Assembly (NCBI RefSeq): GCF_900129395.1
Contig: NZ_FQVP01000007.1
Span: forward strand, 62,001 to 126,000
Reading direction: 5' to 3'
From: Pseudosulfitobacter pseudonitzschiae
GTDB lineage: Bacteria > Pseudomonadota > Alphaproteobacteria > Rhodobacterales > Rhodobacteraceae
Length of the DNA: 64,000 nt
Part shown: positions 10,438 through 64,000 of the stretch, in pieces
How the letters are laid out: each line of letters starts with the position of its first letter
Numbering within the stretch: the first letter of the stretch is position 1
Program-made: the position numbers and the translations under genes
Notes under the pieces: generated by a model
Databases searched by the model: none
The model's input: the letters and a program-made list of their open reading frames with translations, nothing else
What the model was told of the DNA's origin: nothing

Positions 10438-12366
10438 ATGAGCCAGACAGCCGACCAGATGGAGCTGCGTGAGGAAGAGATCACCGCGCATTACGCGATG
10501 GCCCTGGCGATGTTGCAGGGATTCGACCACGCGCCGCGGATTGGCAAGGCGGCCGAGGCCCCGCAGCAAGAGGCGTCATCCGGCATCGGCACGCGGCGGC
10601 GGTTTCGTACCACGACACCCGGCCTGGTGACACGGCGCAGCACGGTGACGGGTGCGGTGCAGTTGATCGCGCGGGTCGAGGGGGAGGACGATGCGCTGAT
10701 GTCGCCCTTGCAGGCGACTGTGCTGAACGGGCTGCGGCGGGCGATTTCCATCGCCTTGGCGGTGGCCGAGAATTACGCCGACGTGTCGGGGCTGGGGGAT
10801 TTGAAACGTGCGAACCTTGAGGGCAATTTGCCCGACGCGCGCAAAGTCGAGTTTTCGGAGCTGCTGGCGGGCGAGGCATTGGTCACGCTTTATGTGTTTG
10901 GCAATGCCACTGCGTACCTCATGTCTTCGCACCAGTCCGAAGTGACCGTCGAAGTGGGCGATGTGCAGGAAATGCTGACCGACAACGGCCAGACCGCCCT
11001 GCACGGTGCGCTGTGGGAGCTGGATCAGGACATCGCCGCCCACGCCACCGACGACGCGCGTCTGGTGGCGACGGTTGCCGCTTTTGCCGAGGCGCTGATG
11101 GAAAAGGTCGCCCTGCGCGCGCAAGAGGCCCCGCGCCTGTCCGGCTTTACCAACGCCGTCTGGCGGGTCGAGGCGGATGATTTCACCATTGCGGGCTTTA
11201 CCCCCGCGACCAAGGCGAAATCGACCAAGCTGACGATGACCTTCAAGAAACCCAACGAGGTCGTGGGCAACCATATCGCCAAATATCAGGCGATGAAGCT
11301 GGCCAAGATGCTGATGGCCTATGACTTTGAACGCAAGCTGAACCCCTTTGCCGAACTGGGCGGGTTCATCTTTACTTTTATGGGCGATGGCAAGCCGGGC
11401 ACGGGCAAGACGACGCTGATCCAGATGATGGCGGGGCTGATCAACGATTATTGCGCGGTTGCGGGCTATCCCTTCCGCTATCAGAACCTGAGCACCGACA
11501 ACATCGACAGCTATCAGGGCAAGTCGGGCCAGAACGCCAAGGCGTTTATCAACACAATCATCGACTCCAATGCCATCGGCTTTGGCACCATCGACGACAT
11601 CGACCAGCTTGCCGGCAAACGCGGCGACAGGCAGTCCAGCGCGGGGCAGCTTGAGATCACGGCGGTGCTGATGGAAAGCTTTGCCGGGGCCAACACCGTG
11701 GTGCGGGGCAACTGCACCTTTGGCATGTTCTCGAACTATCCCGAGAACGTCGACGATGCCCTGCGCCAGCGGGCAGGCGCGCGGTTTCTGGTGGACGGGC
11801 CGCAAACGCGCGAGGATTACATCGACATCCTGTACCTGCTGATGGGCAAGAACCACGATATTCCGGTCGGCGCACACGAGGTGTTCTCGGCGCAGGAGAT
11901 CAAGAAGGCCGTGGCCGCATCCTTTGAAAGCCACAGCCGCCCGCACGAGGCGGGGTTGATGCAGGTGTTTGACCGCGTGCACGACCAGATCGGCGAGTTG
12001 GACACGATTGCCAAGCTGGGGACCTATCTGAAAGGCATTCAGGAGGCGGATGAGCGGTTCACGGGCCGTGCGATCAAGAACATCACCGACGCGGTCAAGG
12101 TGCGGGCGATGGATTTTGAACTGCCGGATGAGTGGATGGAGAACCCCGAGCTGTTCCTGTTCAAAAGCTATGACGCCAAGAAGGACATGATCGCCGAGCT
12201 GCGCCAGCCGATCACCGTGGAAATGGTGATACAAGAGATCAACCGCTATGCGGATTCCGAGTTCCGCTATGCGGACAAGTCGGACGAGGTGGCGATTGAC
12301 GCGATGGTGCGGGAGTTTGGGCGGCAGGAAGCGGCGAAGAAGCGGTATTTGGAGGGGAAAGGGTGA
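10438..12366 (+). CDS. AAA+ family ATPase
   Basis: Central ATPase of the cluster, 642 residues. Residues 1-290 form an uncharacterised N-terminal region; the AAA+ module follows with Walker A GKPGTGKT (residues 318-325, Lys324), Walker B around Gly383-Thr-Ile-Asp-Asp-Ile-Asp389, a sensor-like NYPENVDD and an arginine-finger candidate in ALRQRAGARF. The C-terminal 200 residues are helical and hydrophilic. There is no membrane helix, so membrane contact would come from the two small membrane proteins encoded downstream. The stop overlaps the next start as GTGA. By family knowledge such ATPases remodel or unfold protein partners; the substrate here is unknown. Confidence 0.85.
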   Translation: MSQTADQMELREEEITAHYAMALAMLQGFDHAPRIGKAAEAPQQEASSGIGTRRRFRTTTPGLVTRRSTVTGAVQLIARVEGEDDALMSPLQATVLNGLRRAISIALAVAENYADVSGLGDLKRANLEGNLPDARKVEFSELLAGEALVTLYVFGNATAYLMSSHQSEVTVEVGDVQEMLTDNGQTALHGALWELDQDIAAHATDDARLVATVAAFAEALMEKVALRAQEAPRLSGFTNAVWRVEADDFTIAGFTPATKAKSTKLTMTFKKPNEVVGNHIAKYQAMKLAKMLMAYDFERKLNPFAELGGFIFTFMGDGKPGTGKTTLIQMMAGLINDYCAVAGYPFRYQNLSTDNIDSYQGKSGQNAKAFINTIIDSNAIGFGTIDDIDQLAGKRGDRQSSAGQLEITAVLMESFAGANTVVRGNCTFGMFSNYPENVDDALRQRAGARFLVDGPQTREDYIDILYLLMGKNHDIPVGAHEVFSAQEIKKAVAASFESHSRPHEAGLMQVFDRVHDQIGELDTIAKLGTYLKGIQEADERFTGRAIKNITDAVKVRAMDFELPDEWMENPELFLFKSYDAKKDMIAELRQPITVEMVIQEINRYADSEFRYADKSDEVAIDAMVREFGRQEAAKKRYLEGKG

Positions 12367-13076
12367 AGAATTTACCGCATTGGTGCACTGGGCCGGCTGA
12401 AATCCTCAAGCATGGCTTTTCATTATTGTCGGAAGACACTGATTCCAACCGCCGACTTGCAATGATATGTATAGACAATGCAGTGGAGCTTACGGCAAAG
12501 ACATTTCTTTCCTTACCCAAGAGAATCACGGCTGTAGAGATTTCACGCAAGCAAAGAGACGCTTACTCTGCGACATTTCCAGACCTGCTTGATGGCTTGG
12601 AAACACATGCTGCTGCGAAAGTAATCGGCCTGAACTTAGGTGAAGTAGAGTGGTTTCATCGGCTTAGAAACCAACTGTATCATCAGGGGGATGGGCTTAC
12701 CGTTGAGCGAGCAAAAGTTGAAGCTTACGCAGAGATAGCCGAGCAATTGTTCAACTCGCTTTTTGAAGTGTCATTTTCGTTTTCAAATACGCGGGCTACA
12801 ACTAAATTAGGAGAGTTCTTTGCACTTTGGATACGTATCGAAAAAGCGATTGTCGGTCGCAACATGTTGCGCCAAGGAAATCTCGACGGGTACGCTCGGG
12901 AAATGTTGGCAGAGCCGTCTAACTCTCATTCTGAGAATTGGATGAAATATAGATTCCTTAGAGAGCTAAGAAATAAGGTGGCCCACGGTGAGGTGGCCGC
13001 CGAGGAAGCAATAAGCGACGAGGTTATAGCTGACGCCGAAGTCATTGCTGATATTTTAGAGGCACAAAGAAAATGA
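12363..13076 (+). CDS. HEPN-like protein with two RNxxxH motifs, inserted in AAA+ cluster
   Basis: A 237-residue, mostly helical soluble protein. Two copies of the HEPN nuclease signature R-N-x3-H are visible: Arg102-Asn103...His107 (RNQLYH) and Arg203-Asn204...His208 (RNKVAH), 101 residues apart, consistent with two tandem HEPN-like bundles. HEPN proteins include RNase toxins and phage-defence effectors. The gene is about 46% G+C by my count, while a sample line of the flanking ATPase gene is 70%, and it uses rare codons such as AGA, CTA, TTA and ATA. Its GTG start overlaps the ATPase stop (GTGA) and its TGA overlaps the next ATG (ATGA). It looks acquired. Nuclease function is inferred from the motifs alone. 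Confidence 0.75.
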   Translation: MKNLPHWCTGPAEILKHGFSLLSEDTDSNRRLAMICIDNAVELTAKTFLSLPKRITAVEISRKQRDAYSATFPDLLDGLETHAAAKVIGLNLGEVEWFHRLRNQLYHQGDGLTVERAKVEAYAEIAEQLFNSLFEVSFSFSNTRATTKLGEFFALWIRIEKAIVGRNMLRQGNLDGYAREMLAEPSNSHSENWMKYRFLRELRNKVAHGEVAAEEAISDEVIADAEVIADILEAQRK

Positions 13077-61249: not shown

Positions 61250-61275
61250 AAGGGGCTGCAAATTGCGGCCCCTTT
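61250..61275. terminator. Terminator between dapA and soeC
   Basis: AAGGGGCTGC (61250-61259) pairs with GCGGCCCCTT (61265-61274) around a 5-base loop, with one G-T pair, followed by a T. It serves the convergent dapA and soeC genes and overlaps the soeC stop codon by a base or two. Confidence 0.82.
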
Positions 61276-62146
61276 ATCGTTTCCCGTAGTACAGCCCGAC
61301 CACATGTTCCGCCTGCGCAAAGAACAACCACCGCGCAACCAGTACCCCCGCCACATGACTCAGCACCGCCACCAGCGCCAGCCAGTGTGAAAACGGCACC
61401 AGCAGCAGGATCACCGGCAACGCAATCGCCAGCACAAAGGCGATGATGCGCAGTTTCATCCCGTGCTTGCGCCCCACCACAAAGACAAACTCGCGCAGCA
61501 GATAGTTGGTGCCGGTGTGCGGCGGCTCGAACGCGCGGGGCGTGCCGATGGAGCCAAGTCCCGTGGCCGTCGCGAGTGTCGTGCCCGACCGCGCGAACGC
61601 GCCGTCGCCGTGCACCCACGTGGCAACAAGCGCGCCCCCTGCCAGAAGCAGCAAGATCACCGCCGCAGTGGTCTGCCCGGCCAGCAACGCCCCGCCCGCG
61701 ACGGCCATCGCCAAAAACATCACCGGCGTCAGCGGCGAGTGCCAGCGCGGCACGGTTTTCAGCTGGGTGTAGATCATAGACGTTGTGAACACGGTCAGCA
61801 GGCACAGCACGGCACCCAAAACCCCAACCAACGACAGGGCGGTGGCAAAAAAGATCGTCCCGATGGCATAGACGCCCATCACCAGCAGGGCGGCCACCGA
61901 CATCACCGCCTCGCGGCTCAGCCAGCTTGTGCGCCATTGCGTGAACGCCTTAAGCGCGCGTTCGGGGCGGCCAAGGTGAAAGGCCGAGGCCATCAGCCCG
62001 CCCACCGCGCAGACATAGGCGATGGTGAAGAACACAAATGCAGTCAGCCCCGTAACCGCCGGATAGCCCAAGCCAAGCCATGCCAGCAGCCCAAAGCCCA
62101 GCCCCGAGAAGGTGGTGAAGAGGATGACAGAGGGTGCGGGATGCAT
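61274..62146 (-). CDS. soeC: DmsC/SoeC-type membrane anchor subunit
   Basis: Quinone-reactive membrane subunit of 290 residues with eight predicted helices, of the DmsC/NrfD-like group. PSVILFTTFSGLGFGLLAWLGLG and AFHLGRPERALKAF are typical of DmsC proteins. It lies 1 base after the Fe-S subunit gene. Together with soeA and soeB it would form a periplasm- or cytoplasm-facing molybdoenzyme; sulfite oxidation is inferred from the SoeB-like sequence. Confidence 0.82.
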   Translation of the reverse strand: MHPAPSVILFTTFSGLGFGLLAWLGLGYPAVTGLTAFVFFTIAYVCAVGGLMASAFHLGRPERALKAFTQWRTSWLSREAVMSVAALLVMGVYAIGTIFFATALSLVGVLGAVLCLLTVFTTSMIYTQLKTVPRWHSPLTPVMFLAMAVAGGALLAGQTTAAVILLLLAGGALVATWVHGDGAFARSGTTLATATGLGSIGTPRAFEPPHTGTNYLLREFVFVVGRKHGMKLRIIAFVLAIALPVILLLVPFSHWLALVAVLSHVAGVLVARWLFFAQAEHVVGLYYGKR

Positions 62147-62147
62147 C

Positions 62148-62912
62148 TCAGAGCTTCTCCAAGGTCTTGTCGAGCCAGCCAAGGAAACCGCCCGGTGCCT
62201 CATCCACGGGGGCAAGGTAGGGGGCCAGCACGTCAATCTCGGGCAGGGCATCCTTGGGCCGTGGCGGCAGATATTTGTTCACGGGCTTGGTGCCCATTTC
62301 CGGCATCAGGTCCATGCCGCCCCGTTCCGCCGTCAGGCGCGACACATGGCTGTCGGGGTCGGCAAAGTCGCCAAAGTGGCGCGCGCCGGCAGGACAGGTG
62401 CGCACGCAGGTCGGGATGCGGTCCACCTCTTCAAGGTTCTCGTTGTAGATGCGGTCGACACAGAGGGTGCATTTTTTCATCACCCCCTCGGCCTCGTCCT
62501 TTTCGCGCGCACCGTACGGGCAGGCCCAGGCGCACAGGCCACAGCCGATGCAGTCGTTTTCGTTGACCAGAACGATACCGTCCTCGACCCGTTTATAGCT
62601 GGCTCCGGTGGGGCAGACGGTGACGCAGGGCGCATCCTCGCAGTGCAGGCAGGATTTGGGGAAGTGGAACAGTTGCGCAGGCGGCTGGACCTTGGCCGAG
62701 GTCGCCAGCGGCTGCACCTCGTAGCTGTGCACGCGGTTCAGGAAGGTCCCGGATGGGGCCGCGCCATAGGGGTCCTGATCGGACAGCGGTGCGCCGTAGT
62801 TTTCCGTGTTCCAGCCCTTGCACGAGATCACGCAGGCATGGCAGCCGACGCAGGTGTCGAGGTCGATGACAAGGCCCAGCTTCTTTTCGGTGTTGTCGGG
62901 AAGAGTGGTCAA
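62148..62912 (-). CDS. soeB: SoeB-type 4Fe-4S ferredoxin subunit (sulfite dehydrogenase/DMSO reductase family)
   Basis: Electron-transfer subunit of 254 residues binding four [4Fe-4S] clusters. Visible clusters are TCVGCHACVISC, CLHCEDAPCVTVCP, CIGCGLCAWACP and C-LC...C-RTCP. The TTG start at 62912 gives MTTLPDNTEKKLGLVIDL, and GGAGG is 8 bases upstream; an ATG at 62927 would add five residues. The long N-terminal block resembles SoeB of the sulfite-oxidising SoeABC enzyme of roseobacters as I remember it, but a DMSO-reductase-type role is also possible. The stop of the inserted gene overlaps the TTG. Confidence 0.82.
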   Translation of the reverse strand: MTTLPDNTEKKLGLVIDLDTCVGCHACVISCKGWNTENYGAPLSDQDPYGAAPSGTFLNRVHSYEVQPLATSAKVQPPAQLFHFPKSCLHCEDAPCVTVCPTGASYKRVEDGIVLVNENDCIGCGLCAWACPYGAREKDEAEGVMKKCTLCVDRIYNENLEEVDRIPTCVRTCPAGARHFGDFADPDSHVSRLTAERGGMDLMPEMGTKPVNKYLPPRPKDALPEIDVLAPYLAPVDEAPGGFLGWLDKTLEKL

Positions 62913-63469
62913 TGCTCTGGCCTCCATTTTGGATCGGTGATCGCAAAGAACATTTGCAATGTCTCAGAGACCGGGGCGGCGTAAACGCCCTTGGATTTGG
63001 ATACTGACGCTGCAACCTTTGCGAGGTGCCAAGCATCATCCAGAGACAGCCAAACAAGCTTGGAAGTAAGGGGGCGAAAACCTCGCTGTTCCCCAAACTC
63101 TTGGGCCTTTTGTGCAACTGCCGTTTGATATTCGGAAATGTATTCGTTTCCCCAACTCCATAGAAACTCGTTCCGGGGTTCAAACCAGCTCCCAATGGTT
63201 TCCAGTGGGGTCTCGCAAATTTTTCCATCAGGGAAATGGAATTCCAGCAGGCCGACCTCTTCGTCATATTGCCAGTTACCGACACCGTTCCCGATACCAA
63301 ACTTTGCGGCCAGCTGGACCATGCACGCATCTTGTTTGATGCAGCTTCGCTGGACCAAAGCGCCAAAACCCTCATCCTCGTATGAATGTGGTGCGCCGCA
63401 ATCGGGGCATTCGATTTCACATGAGAATGCCGATCGGCCGTTTTGTGCTTTTCGAAATGGCCAGATCAT
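62909..63469 (-). CDS. Uncharacterised gene inserted between soeA and soeB (DUF6882-like)
   Basis: A 186-residue cytoplasmic protein without a clear relation to molybdoenzymes. It starts MIWPFRKAQNG and has a paired-Cys element CEIECPDCGAPHSYEDEG near residues 16-33, then W-rich blocks (GSWFEPRNEFLWSWGNEYI) and a C-terminal LDDAWHLAKVAASVSK. The W-W-N pattern recalls DUF6882, with low certainty. The gene is about 51% G+C by my count, lower than its neighbours. The ATG overlaps the soeA stop (ATGA) and its TGA overlaps the soeB TTG. It looks like a seamless insertion. Confidence 0.7.
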   Translation of the reverse strand: MIWPFRKAQNGRSAFSCEIECPDCGAPHSYEDEGFGALVQRSCIKQDACMVQLAAKFGIGNGVGNWQYDEEVGLLEFHFPDGKICETPLETIGSWFEPRNEFLWSWGNEYISEYQTAVAQKAQEFGEQRGFRPLTSKLVWLSLDDAWHLAKVAASVSKSKGVYAAPVSETLQMFFAITDPKWRPEH

Positions 63470-64000
63470 TTGCCAACCTTCCAAGCCAGGCTGTCAGGTC
63501 CCTGACCCACGGGCGATTTGATCGGCTCCATGACCGGTTTCGACTGATCCTGTGACGCCGCCTTGGCGATGCGCACTTTCAGATCGAACCACGCCGCCTG
63601 CCCGGTGATCGGGTCAGAATTGGCCCACCGCAACCCGTCGCCCTTGGGCGGCAGCAGTTCGTGGATCAGGTGGTTCAGCAGGAACCCCTTGGTCGCCTCG
63701 GGTGCGTCCTTGTCCAGCGCCCACGCGCCTTTGCGCTTGCCGATGGCGTTCCAGGTCCAGACGGTATTGGGGTTCAGCGCCGCCATTTCCAGCACCGGCA
63801 CCGTGATTTCGCCGTGGGGCGAGGTGACGGTGGCCCAATCGCCATCCTTCAGGTCGTGGTCGCGCATCAGGTTGGTCGGCAGGTACAGCGGGTTGTGCCC
63901 GTGCAATTGCCGCAGCCATGCGTTCTGGCTGCCCCAGGAATGGTACATGGCCATCGGGCGCTGGGTCAGCGCGGTCACGGGATATTCGGCGGCGCGGTTG
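63466..64000 (-). CDS. soeA: Molybdopterin oxidoreductase catalytic subunit, 3' part (SoeA/DmsA type)
   Basis: C-terminal 177 residues of a molybdopterin-binding subunit; the rest lies beyond the window. It contains the molybdopterin-dinucleotide-binding domain: YPVTALTQRPMAMYHSWGSQNAWLRQLHG, LPTNLMRDHDLKDGDWATVTSPHGEI and GAWALDKDAPEATKGFLLNHLI. The stop overlaps the start of an unrelated inserted gene, which separates it from soeB. By family logic, it oxidises sulfite (or reduces a related substrate) and passes electrons to soeB and soeC. Confidence 0.8.
   Translation of the reverse strand, partial: NRAAEYPVTALTQRPMAMYHSWGSQNAWLRQLHGHNPLYLPTNLMRDHDLKDGDWATVTSPHGEITVPVLEMAALNPNTVWTWNAIGKRKGAWALDKDAPEATKGFLLNHLIHELLPPKGDGLRWANSDPITGQAAWFDLKVRIAKAASQDQSKPVMEPIKSPVGQGPDSLAWKVGK

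Follow-up and report, generated by a model that had tools for sequence, protein, structure and literature searches.

How can a gene that close relatives lack come to lie between two genes of an operon so exactly that its start overlaps the stop of the gene before it and its stop overlaps the start of the gene behind it? The question is raised by the soeA/soeB junction in the 64,000-nucleotide stretch of Pseudosulfitobacter pseudonitzschiae DNA analysed here (the window). A Mo-oxidoreductase, a 4Fe–4S subunit and a DmsC/NrfD-like membrane subunit are encoded there in one operon, which is the SoeABC architecture (Table 1), and Pfam searches of the homologues in locus L040 identified PF00384 and PF04879 in SoeA, Fer4 domains in SoeB and PF04976 in SoeC. 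NCBIfam searches of the SoeA and SoeB homologues of L040 returned just related families, all below their cut-offs, and no dedicated model above its cut-off; by similarity, we take the operon to be soeABC.

Table 1 Features of the soe locus and of the slot compared with it, in window coordinates
Feature	Position	Strand	Basis or remark
soeA 3' end, molybdopterin catalytic subunit	63466..64000	minus	PF01568; gene continues past the window
Guest gene, DUF6882 protein, 186 aa	62909..63469	minus	ORF call and PF21813 match
GGAGG, Shine-Dalgarno-like site for soeB	62921..62925	minus	Within the 3' end of the guest gene
soeB, 4Fe–4S subunit	62148..62912	minus	TTG start at 62912 or ATG at 62927
soeC, membrane anchor subunit	61274..62146	minus	ORF; L040 homologue matches PF04976 (DmsC)
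Imported tract, largest extent	62857..63483	minus	Smallest extent 62883–63475; columns converted to coordinates by hand
Cargo gene, weak HEPN-like matches	12363..13076	plus	Between AAA-ATPase and DUF6638 genes

The guest ORF, of 187 codons, occupies the insert between soeA and soeB entirely, and a DUF6882 protein with an N-terminal CxxCxxxH motif is its sole product. The 3' end of soeA reads ...GGCAAATGA, whose ATG (63469) is the start of the guest ORF; the latter ends in ...CATTGA (stop at 62909–62911), and soeB reads TTGACCACT from 62912, giving overlaps of ATGA with soeA and TTGA with soeB. GGAAGG lies in the soeA tail ahead of the guest ATG, and the GGAGG near the guest stop is 8 nt upstream of the soeB TTG and recurs in Sulfitobacter sp. 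DFL-14, Epibacterium ulvae and genome G104. The first-pass annotation had described an insert of about 51% G+C with TGA on both sides, whose excision (62909–63465) leaves AAATGACCACT. Reading of the printed sequence bears out the excision, and the G+C content of the insert is 0.515 (GC3 0.52), against 0.645 for the soeA part and 0.640 (GC3 0.82) for soeB. The annotation's statement that soeB is forced to use TTG stands only in part, since TTG is a possible start but an in-frame ATG is available as an alternative. The overlap geometry is ordinary in itself; a home-made gene caller gave four-base overlaps for 16 of the 87 pairs of same-strand neighbours on the window's contig and for 55 of 285 in congener G003, and TGA on both sides is expected of any TGA-ending gene inserted at such a junction. 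No inverted repeats were found in 62850–63530, and an Rfam search of 62000–64000 gave no match. A transposon, insertion sequence or integron cassette was considered and rejected on these two results and because the ORF fills the insert (attC sites being sought by Rfam only).

The distinctive point is that all five congeners lack the gene and have a clean empty junction in its place; four of them read ..AAATGAC and the fifth (G002) ..CGAATGAC. The comparison with sister genomes proposed by the first-pass annotation therefore agrees with a precise insertion of lower G+C content into a clean empty site. The inserted DNA is 97.8% identical to that of DFL-14, and the DFL-14-like segment runs from the last ~6–14 bases of soeA through the gene to the first ~30–56 bases of soeB, with sequence outside it matching the congeners. 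In steps of 100 bases, soeA is 95–99% identical to congener G004 and 62–88% to DFL-14, a relation that is reversed in the first 100 bases of soeB (G004 86%, DFL-14 97%). Further on in soeB and soeC, identities are 85–98% to G004 and 60–85% to DFL-14, two badly aligned steps aside, and G004 is the closer in every informative step beyond those first 100 bases.

Sites at which the window agrees with DFL-14 and with none of the five congeners cluster at 63475 in soeA and at columns 0, 6, 8 and 27–29 of soeB, the last of them at 62883; sites of the G004 type, not shared with DFL-14, stop at 63484 on the soeA side (249 sites) and start again at 62856 on the soeB side (100 sites). The tract is thereby 593 to ~627 bases long, edges that are best estimates because donor-private sites also exist far away (soeA columns 77 and 989; soeB columns 107, 275, 401 and 522). 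In the DFL-14 genus, where 30 loci were read out of 57 matching genomes, residues 9–12 of SoeB end in KKL at 28 loci, that of DFL-14 among them; they are EKKL in the window, whereas all five congeners have RKL, so the tract is foreign to the window's genus. KKL is found in some further genera too (e.g., in L014, L022, L024 and L025), and a Sulfitobacter-like donor hence fits, short of proof. Of the 30 loci examined in the DFL-14 genus (57 matching genomes), only that of DFL-14 has DUF6882, and while we infer a Sulfitobacter-like donor, a third donor to both the window and DFL-14 is also conceivable. Judged by these sites, the SoeB start MTTLPDN is itself imported. The first-pass annotation had presented this N-terminus as restored by excision; it is indeed regained, but it is not the ancestral SoeB start because those codons came with the insert. 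At this one recombinant junction examined, recombinant flanks surround an accessory gene in a conserved context.

The locus is probably best explained by a functional DUF6882 gene, in this bacterial family a patchy resident of the soeA/soeB junction, that entered through homologous recombination with the soe operon of a related, Sulfitobacter-like marine bacterium. The donor operon would already have carried DUF6882, and double homologous recombination in the flanking genes, with a conversion tract of ~0.6 kb ending in soeA and soeB, would leave the observed mosaic. Because the flanking genes are common to donor and recipient, entry exactly in register would require no dedicated integrase. Translation of the guest gene is probably coupled to soeA through ATGA, and the guest gene would in turn supply soeB with a start overlap and the GGAGG ribosome site, so that the operon would still work. 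Homologous recombination accounts for the transfer alone, and the original fit of a DUF6882 gene to an ATGA junction would need another explanation.

The guest protein is a member of PF21813 (DUF6882), a family of unknown function, by profile score (residues 38–180; E-value 1.8e-24; 86.6 bits against a gathering cut-off of 23.9), and a literature search found no paper naming DUF6882 (PF21813). Used as a query, the protein matched in 8 of 394 genomes of the bacterial family, and the PF21813 profile in 13. The soeA/soeB junction holds the gene in 8 of these 13 carriers (G000, G092, G104, G173, G182, G187, G359 and G420); the others have it at cobJ/cobM (G357, G093 and G408), at soxB/soxD (G083) or inside a larger protein (G012). 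Genome contigs provided further copies at the soe junction, in DFL-14 (97%) and E. ulvae (50%). Of 398 genomes sampled across the phylum, 16 gave a match: six copies lie behind glpK, mostly with a short spacer before the gene, one overlaps pdxJ, two accompany metH genes (that of G536 lying inside a split metH and overlapping both sides), three are at soe (G000, G104 and G621, the last diverged), and four have no obvious coupled neighbour (G738, G798, G502 and G790, the last below the family cut-off). A second copy in G668 likewise lacks an obvious coupled neighbour. NCBIfam supplied the names of the neighbours in G357 (both over cut-off), G083 (soxB over and soxD just under), G536 (MetH parts partial and thus under cut-off), G498 (PdxJ) and G683 (GlpK); those at the corresponding places in other genomes were named by eye. 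Stop/start overlaps on one or both sides join DUF6882 to its neighbours in other metabolic operons as well, at cobJ/cobM (L046, L047 and L053), soxB/soxD (L043), the split metH (L063) and after pdxJ (L064).

Searches beyond chromosomes matched six plasmid records, all from Escherichia and conjugative, at ~29% identity over 53% of the protein; on one conjugative E. coli plasmid (L171, 3839–4366), the DUF6882 gene follows a lactate-utilisation gene set. The phage records searched contained no match to the guest protein, and a three-row alignment found no relative in the viral contigs searched. A PDB profile search returned nothing below an E-value of 0.64, and an AlphaFold2 model built from three sequences (window, L040 and L041) had a mean pLDDT of 38.7, too poor to use.

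The junction itself varies among relatives. Among the 30 relatives' loci listed, 19 have a −4 overlap, one −1, one +1 and eight a gap of 74–868 bp, the remaining one being the window; two of the eight wide gaps hold an alpha/beta hydrolase gene, identified by Pfam in L015 and by eye in L024. Intermediate forms with spacers, which the first-pass annotation had held to count against its reading, do exist outside the genus: of the 30 DFL-14-genus loci read (57 matching genomes), 26 have spacers of 49–184 bp, two have −4 overlaps, one (L195) has a hydrolase gene recognised by eye, and DFL-14 itself has DUF6882. The hydrolase genes of L015 and L195 have ATGA overlaps at both ends. Many of the DFL-14-genus spacers (L173–L199) contain a palindrome-like stretch rich in G+C (GGGGTCCGGGGCAGCGCCCCGG and variants) that may be a REP-like repeat. 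In G092 (L038, reverse complement 1348–2525), two tandem DUF6882 genes lie between soeA and soeB, the first with a signal-peptide-like start and the second stop-broken and truncated; this broken copy indicates that loss of DUF6882 also occurs.

Nine soe-junction DUF6882 rows form one clade (support 99/98), and the first G092 copy and that of G621, both with signal-peptide-like starts by eye, are placed elsewhere in the trees. A single clade of all soe-junction rows was not rejected (p-AU 0.09, with the long rows G408 and G502 left out), and two independent arrivals are therefore not claimed. Values of dN/dS were 0.19 for the window against DFL-14 (7 synonymous and 5 other changes), 0.16 for E. 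ulvae against G104 and 0.37 for G187 against G359, a saturated pair, and the divergence between the window and E. ulvae was too great for scoring; with 0.16–0.19 in the two close pairs, the guest gene looks to be under purifying selection. In G182, G173, G187 and G359, the copy differs from its locus by no more than 0.01 in G+C content, which a long residence would lead one to expect.

Given the signs of selection and the usual place of the gene behind a single enzyme gene, we slightly favour an accessory protein that would work with its partner enzyme (in assembly, stability or feedback) over mere cargo, although we rate even this accessory role a little short of probable. Counted against a Soe-linked role are the dispensability of the gene, which five of five congeners lack, the unrelated genes found at the same junction and the signal-peptide-like starts in the first G092 copy and in G621. 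Self-sufficient cargo is almost as probable, a somewhat doubtful but serious contender, in which the protein would serve a non-sulfite task (e.g., immunity-like or stress-related), ride the operon for expression and have arrived by the same homologous recombination. The patchy distribution in both genome samples agrees with it, as do the relatives at cobJ/cobM, at soxB/soxD, in the split metH, after pdxJ and behind glpK, those without an obvious coupled neighbour or on the six Escherichia plasmids, and the hydrolase that takes the same soe junction in three genomes. Residence of eight of the 13 family carriers at one junction and the depth of the nine-row clade speak against cargo, although flank-mediated recombination would also hold DUF6882 at the soe junction; also counted against it is that PADLOC matched none of its anti-phage defence families to the guest protein at E-values up to 0.1.

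The first-pass annotation had compared the insert with an unrelated gene in an unrelated operon of the window (12363–13076) and suggested a recurring integration route that targets stop/start overlaps, for which a site-specific or cassette-like element would be needed. Two unrelated inserts of the same geometry in one window do favour such a route, as do the 9 of 28 cargo ORFs that overlap both neighbours at the compared slot and the hydrolase that overlaps both soe neighbours in L015 and L195, but the mosaic tract indicates plain homologous exchange, and the insert is filled by an ORF encoding the DUF6882 protein alone. The shared terminal sequence that the annotation proposed to look for is scarcely there: 5 of the first 40 and 16 of the last 40 bases agree between the two inserts, with little in common beyond NTGA. 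Nor was an excess of insertions at overlaps seen when four genomes of the genus, one of them that of the window, were compared. Their aligned parts contain 13 distinct clean insertions, of which six lie between convergent genes, four in loose same-strand gaps, one between divergent genes, one within a gene and one, the soe insert, at a tight junction, against 122 tight pairs among 428 neighbour pairs in G003 (probability of at most one, 0.08). In this survey, replacement and mixed gaps were dropped, events seen in several pairs were merged by hand and genes came from a home-made caller, and the number of events is small. In two of the three pairs the caller had extended soeB and so placed the soe insert within a gene; the junction counts as tight on the strength of the third pair and of the sequence itself. 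With a single tight junction in this small sample and no inverted repeats, we regard a special route seeking stop/start overlaps as very unlikely.

The part of that suggestion that stands concerns 12363–13076, a hypervariable one-gene slot in which different genes are found again and again. The AAA-ATPase and DUF6638 genes were both in reach in 32 of 36 genomes (the window and five further members of its genus, G233, and 25 taken from the best 29 of 47 other matches in a sample of 100 genomes; loci L072–L079 and L142–L170), and 28 of the 32 have an ORF of at least 60 aa in the gap, often low in G+C and falling into 20 clusters. These cargo ORFs were called mechanically, and those that are short or rich in G+C are not necessarily genes. 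The gap is G+C-poor in five of six genus members (0.40–0.46 against about 0.61; the exception is G001), and the HEPN matches of the window's own slot gene are below the Pfam cut-off; from the Pfam searches of slot genes the row for L149, which fell on DUF6638, was left out. The slot protein of the window (P0002) recurs at 53% in G233, where its gene overlaps the ATPase gene and is followed by a 118-bp spacer to DUF6638. Slot guests vary between genera, and mostly between the species of a genus too; the slot is well suited to a study of what keeps certain junctions within operons open to foreign genes. Some such junctions do serve as standing slots. It is possible, if on the unlikely side, that DUF6882 is a guest family of such coupled-junction slots, spreading between genera by short homologous tracts and probably tuning the preceding enzyme; it would lodge at soeA/soeB, cobJ/cobM, soxB/soxD, in the split metH and after pdxJ, and could carry with it a Shine-Dalgarno site that serves the gene behind it. 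The analysis points to DUF6882 as a family that repeatedly adjoins single metabolic enzymes.

An ancestral gene retained in the window's genome and cleanly lost from all congeners is very unlikely: the gene is widely present at the same junction in the bacterial family and the broken G092 copy shows that loss happens, but the gene, together with the sequence right next to it, resembles DFL-14 within an operon that is otherwise congener-like, and losses restoring the ATGA junction would be needed in all five congeners.

Homologous import from a Sulfitobacter-like operon can be set beside known systems. Mosaic operons, described by Omelchenko et al. in 2003, reportedly arise through gene displacement in situ; like them, the window has a foreign gene in a native operon, but it gains an extra gene where they displace an orthologue. 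The sulfite dehydrogenase operon soeABC of Sulfitobacter is described in passages of PMC11034169, and the window shares its A, B, C order and its Mo, 4Fe–4S and membrane subunits; the window's operon has an additional gene between A and B, of which those passages make no mention. For hotspots, passages of Oliveira et al. 2017 (PMC5635113) propose exchange by double homologous recombination in the flanking genes, and there as in the window an accessory gene is swapped between conserved flanks by housekeeping recombination, with no mobile element. The window differs from those hotspots in that one gene within an operon is concerned, its coding sequence overlaps that of either neighbour, and the edges of the tract are visible; these edges illustrate how the entry of a gene into an operon can be exactly in register with no integrase.
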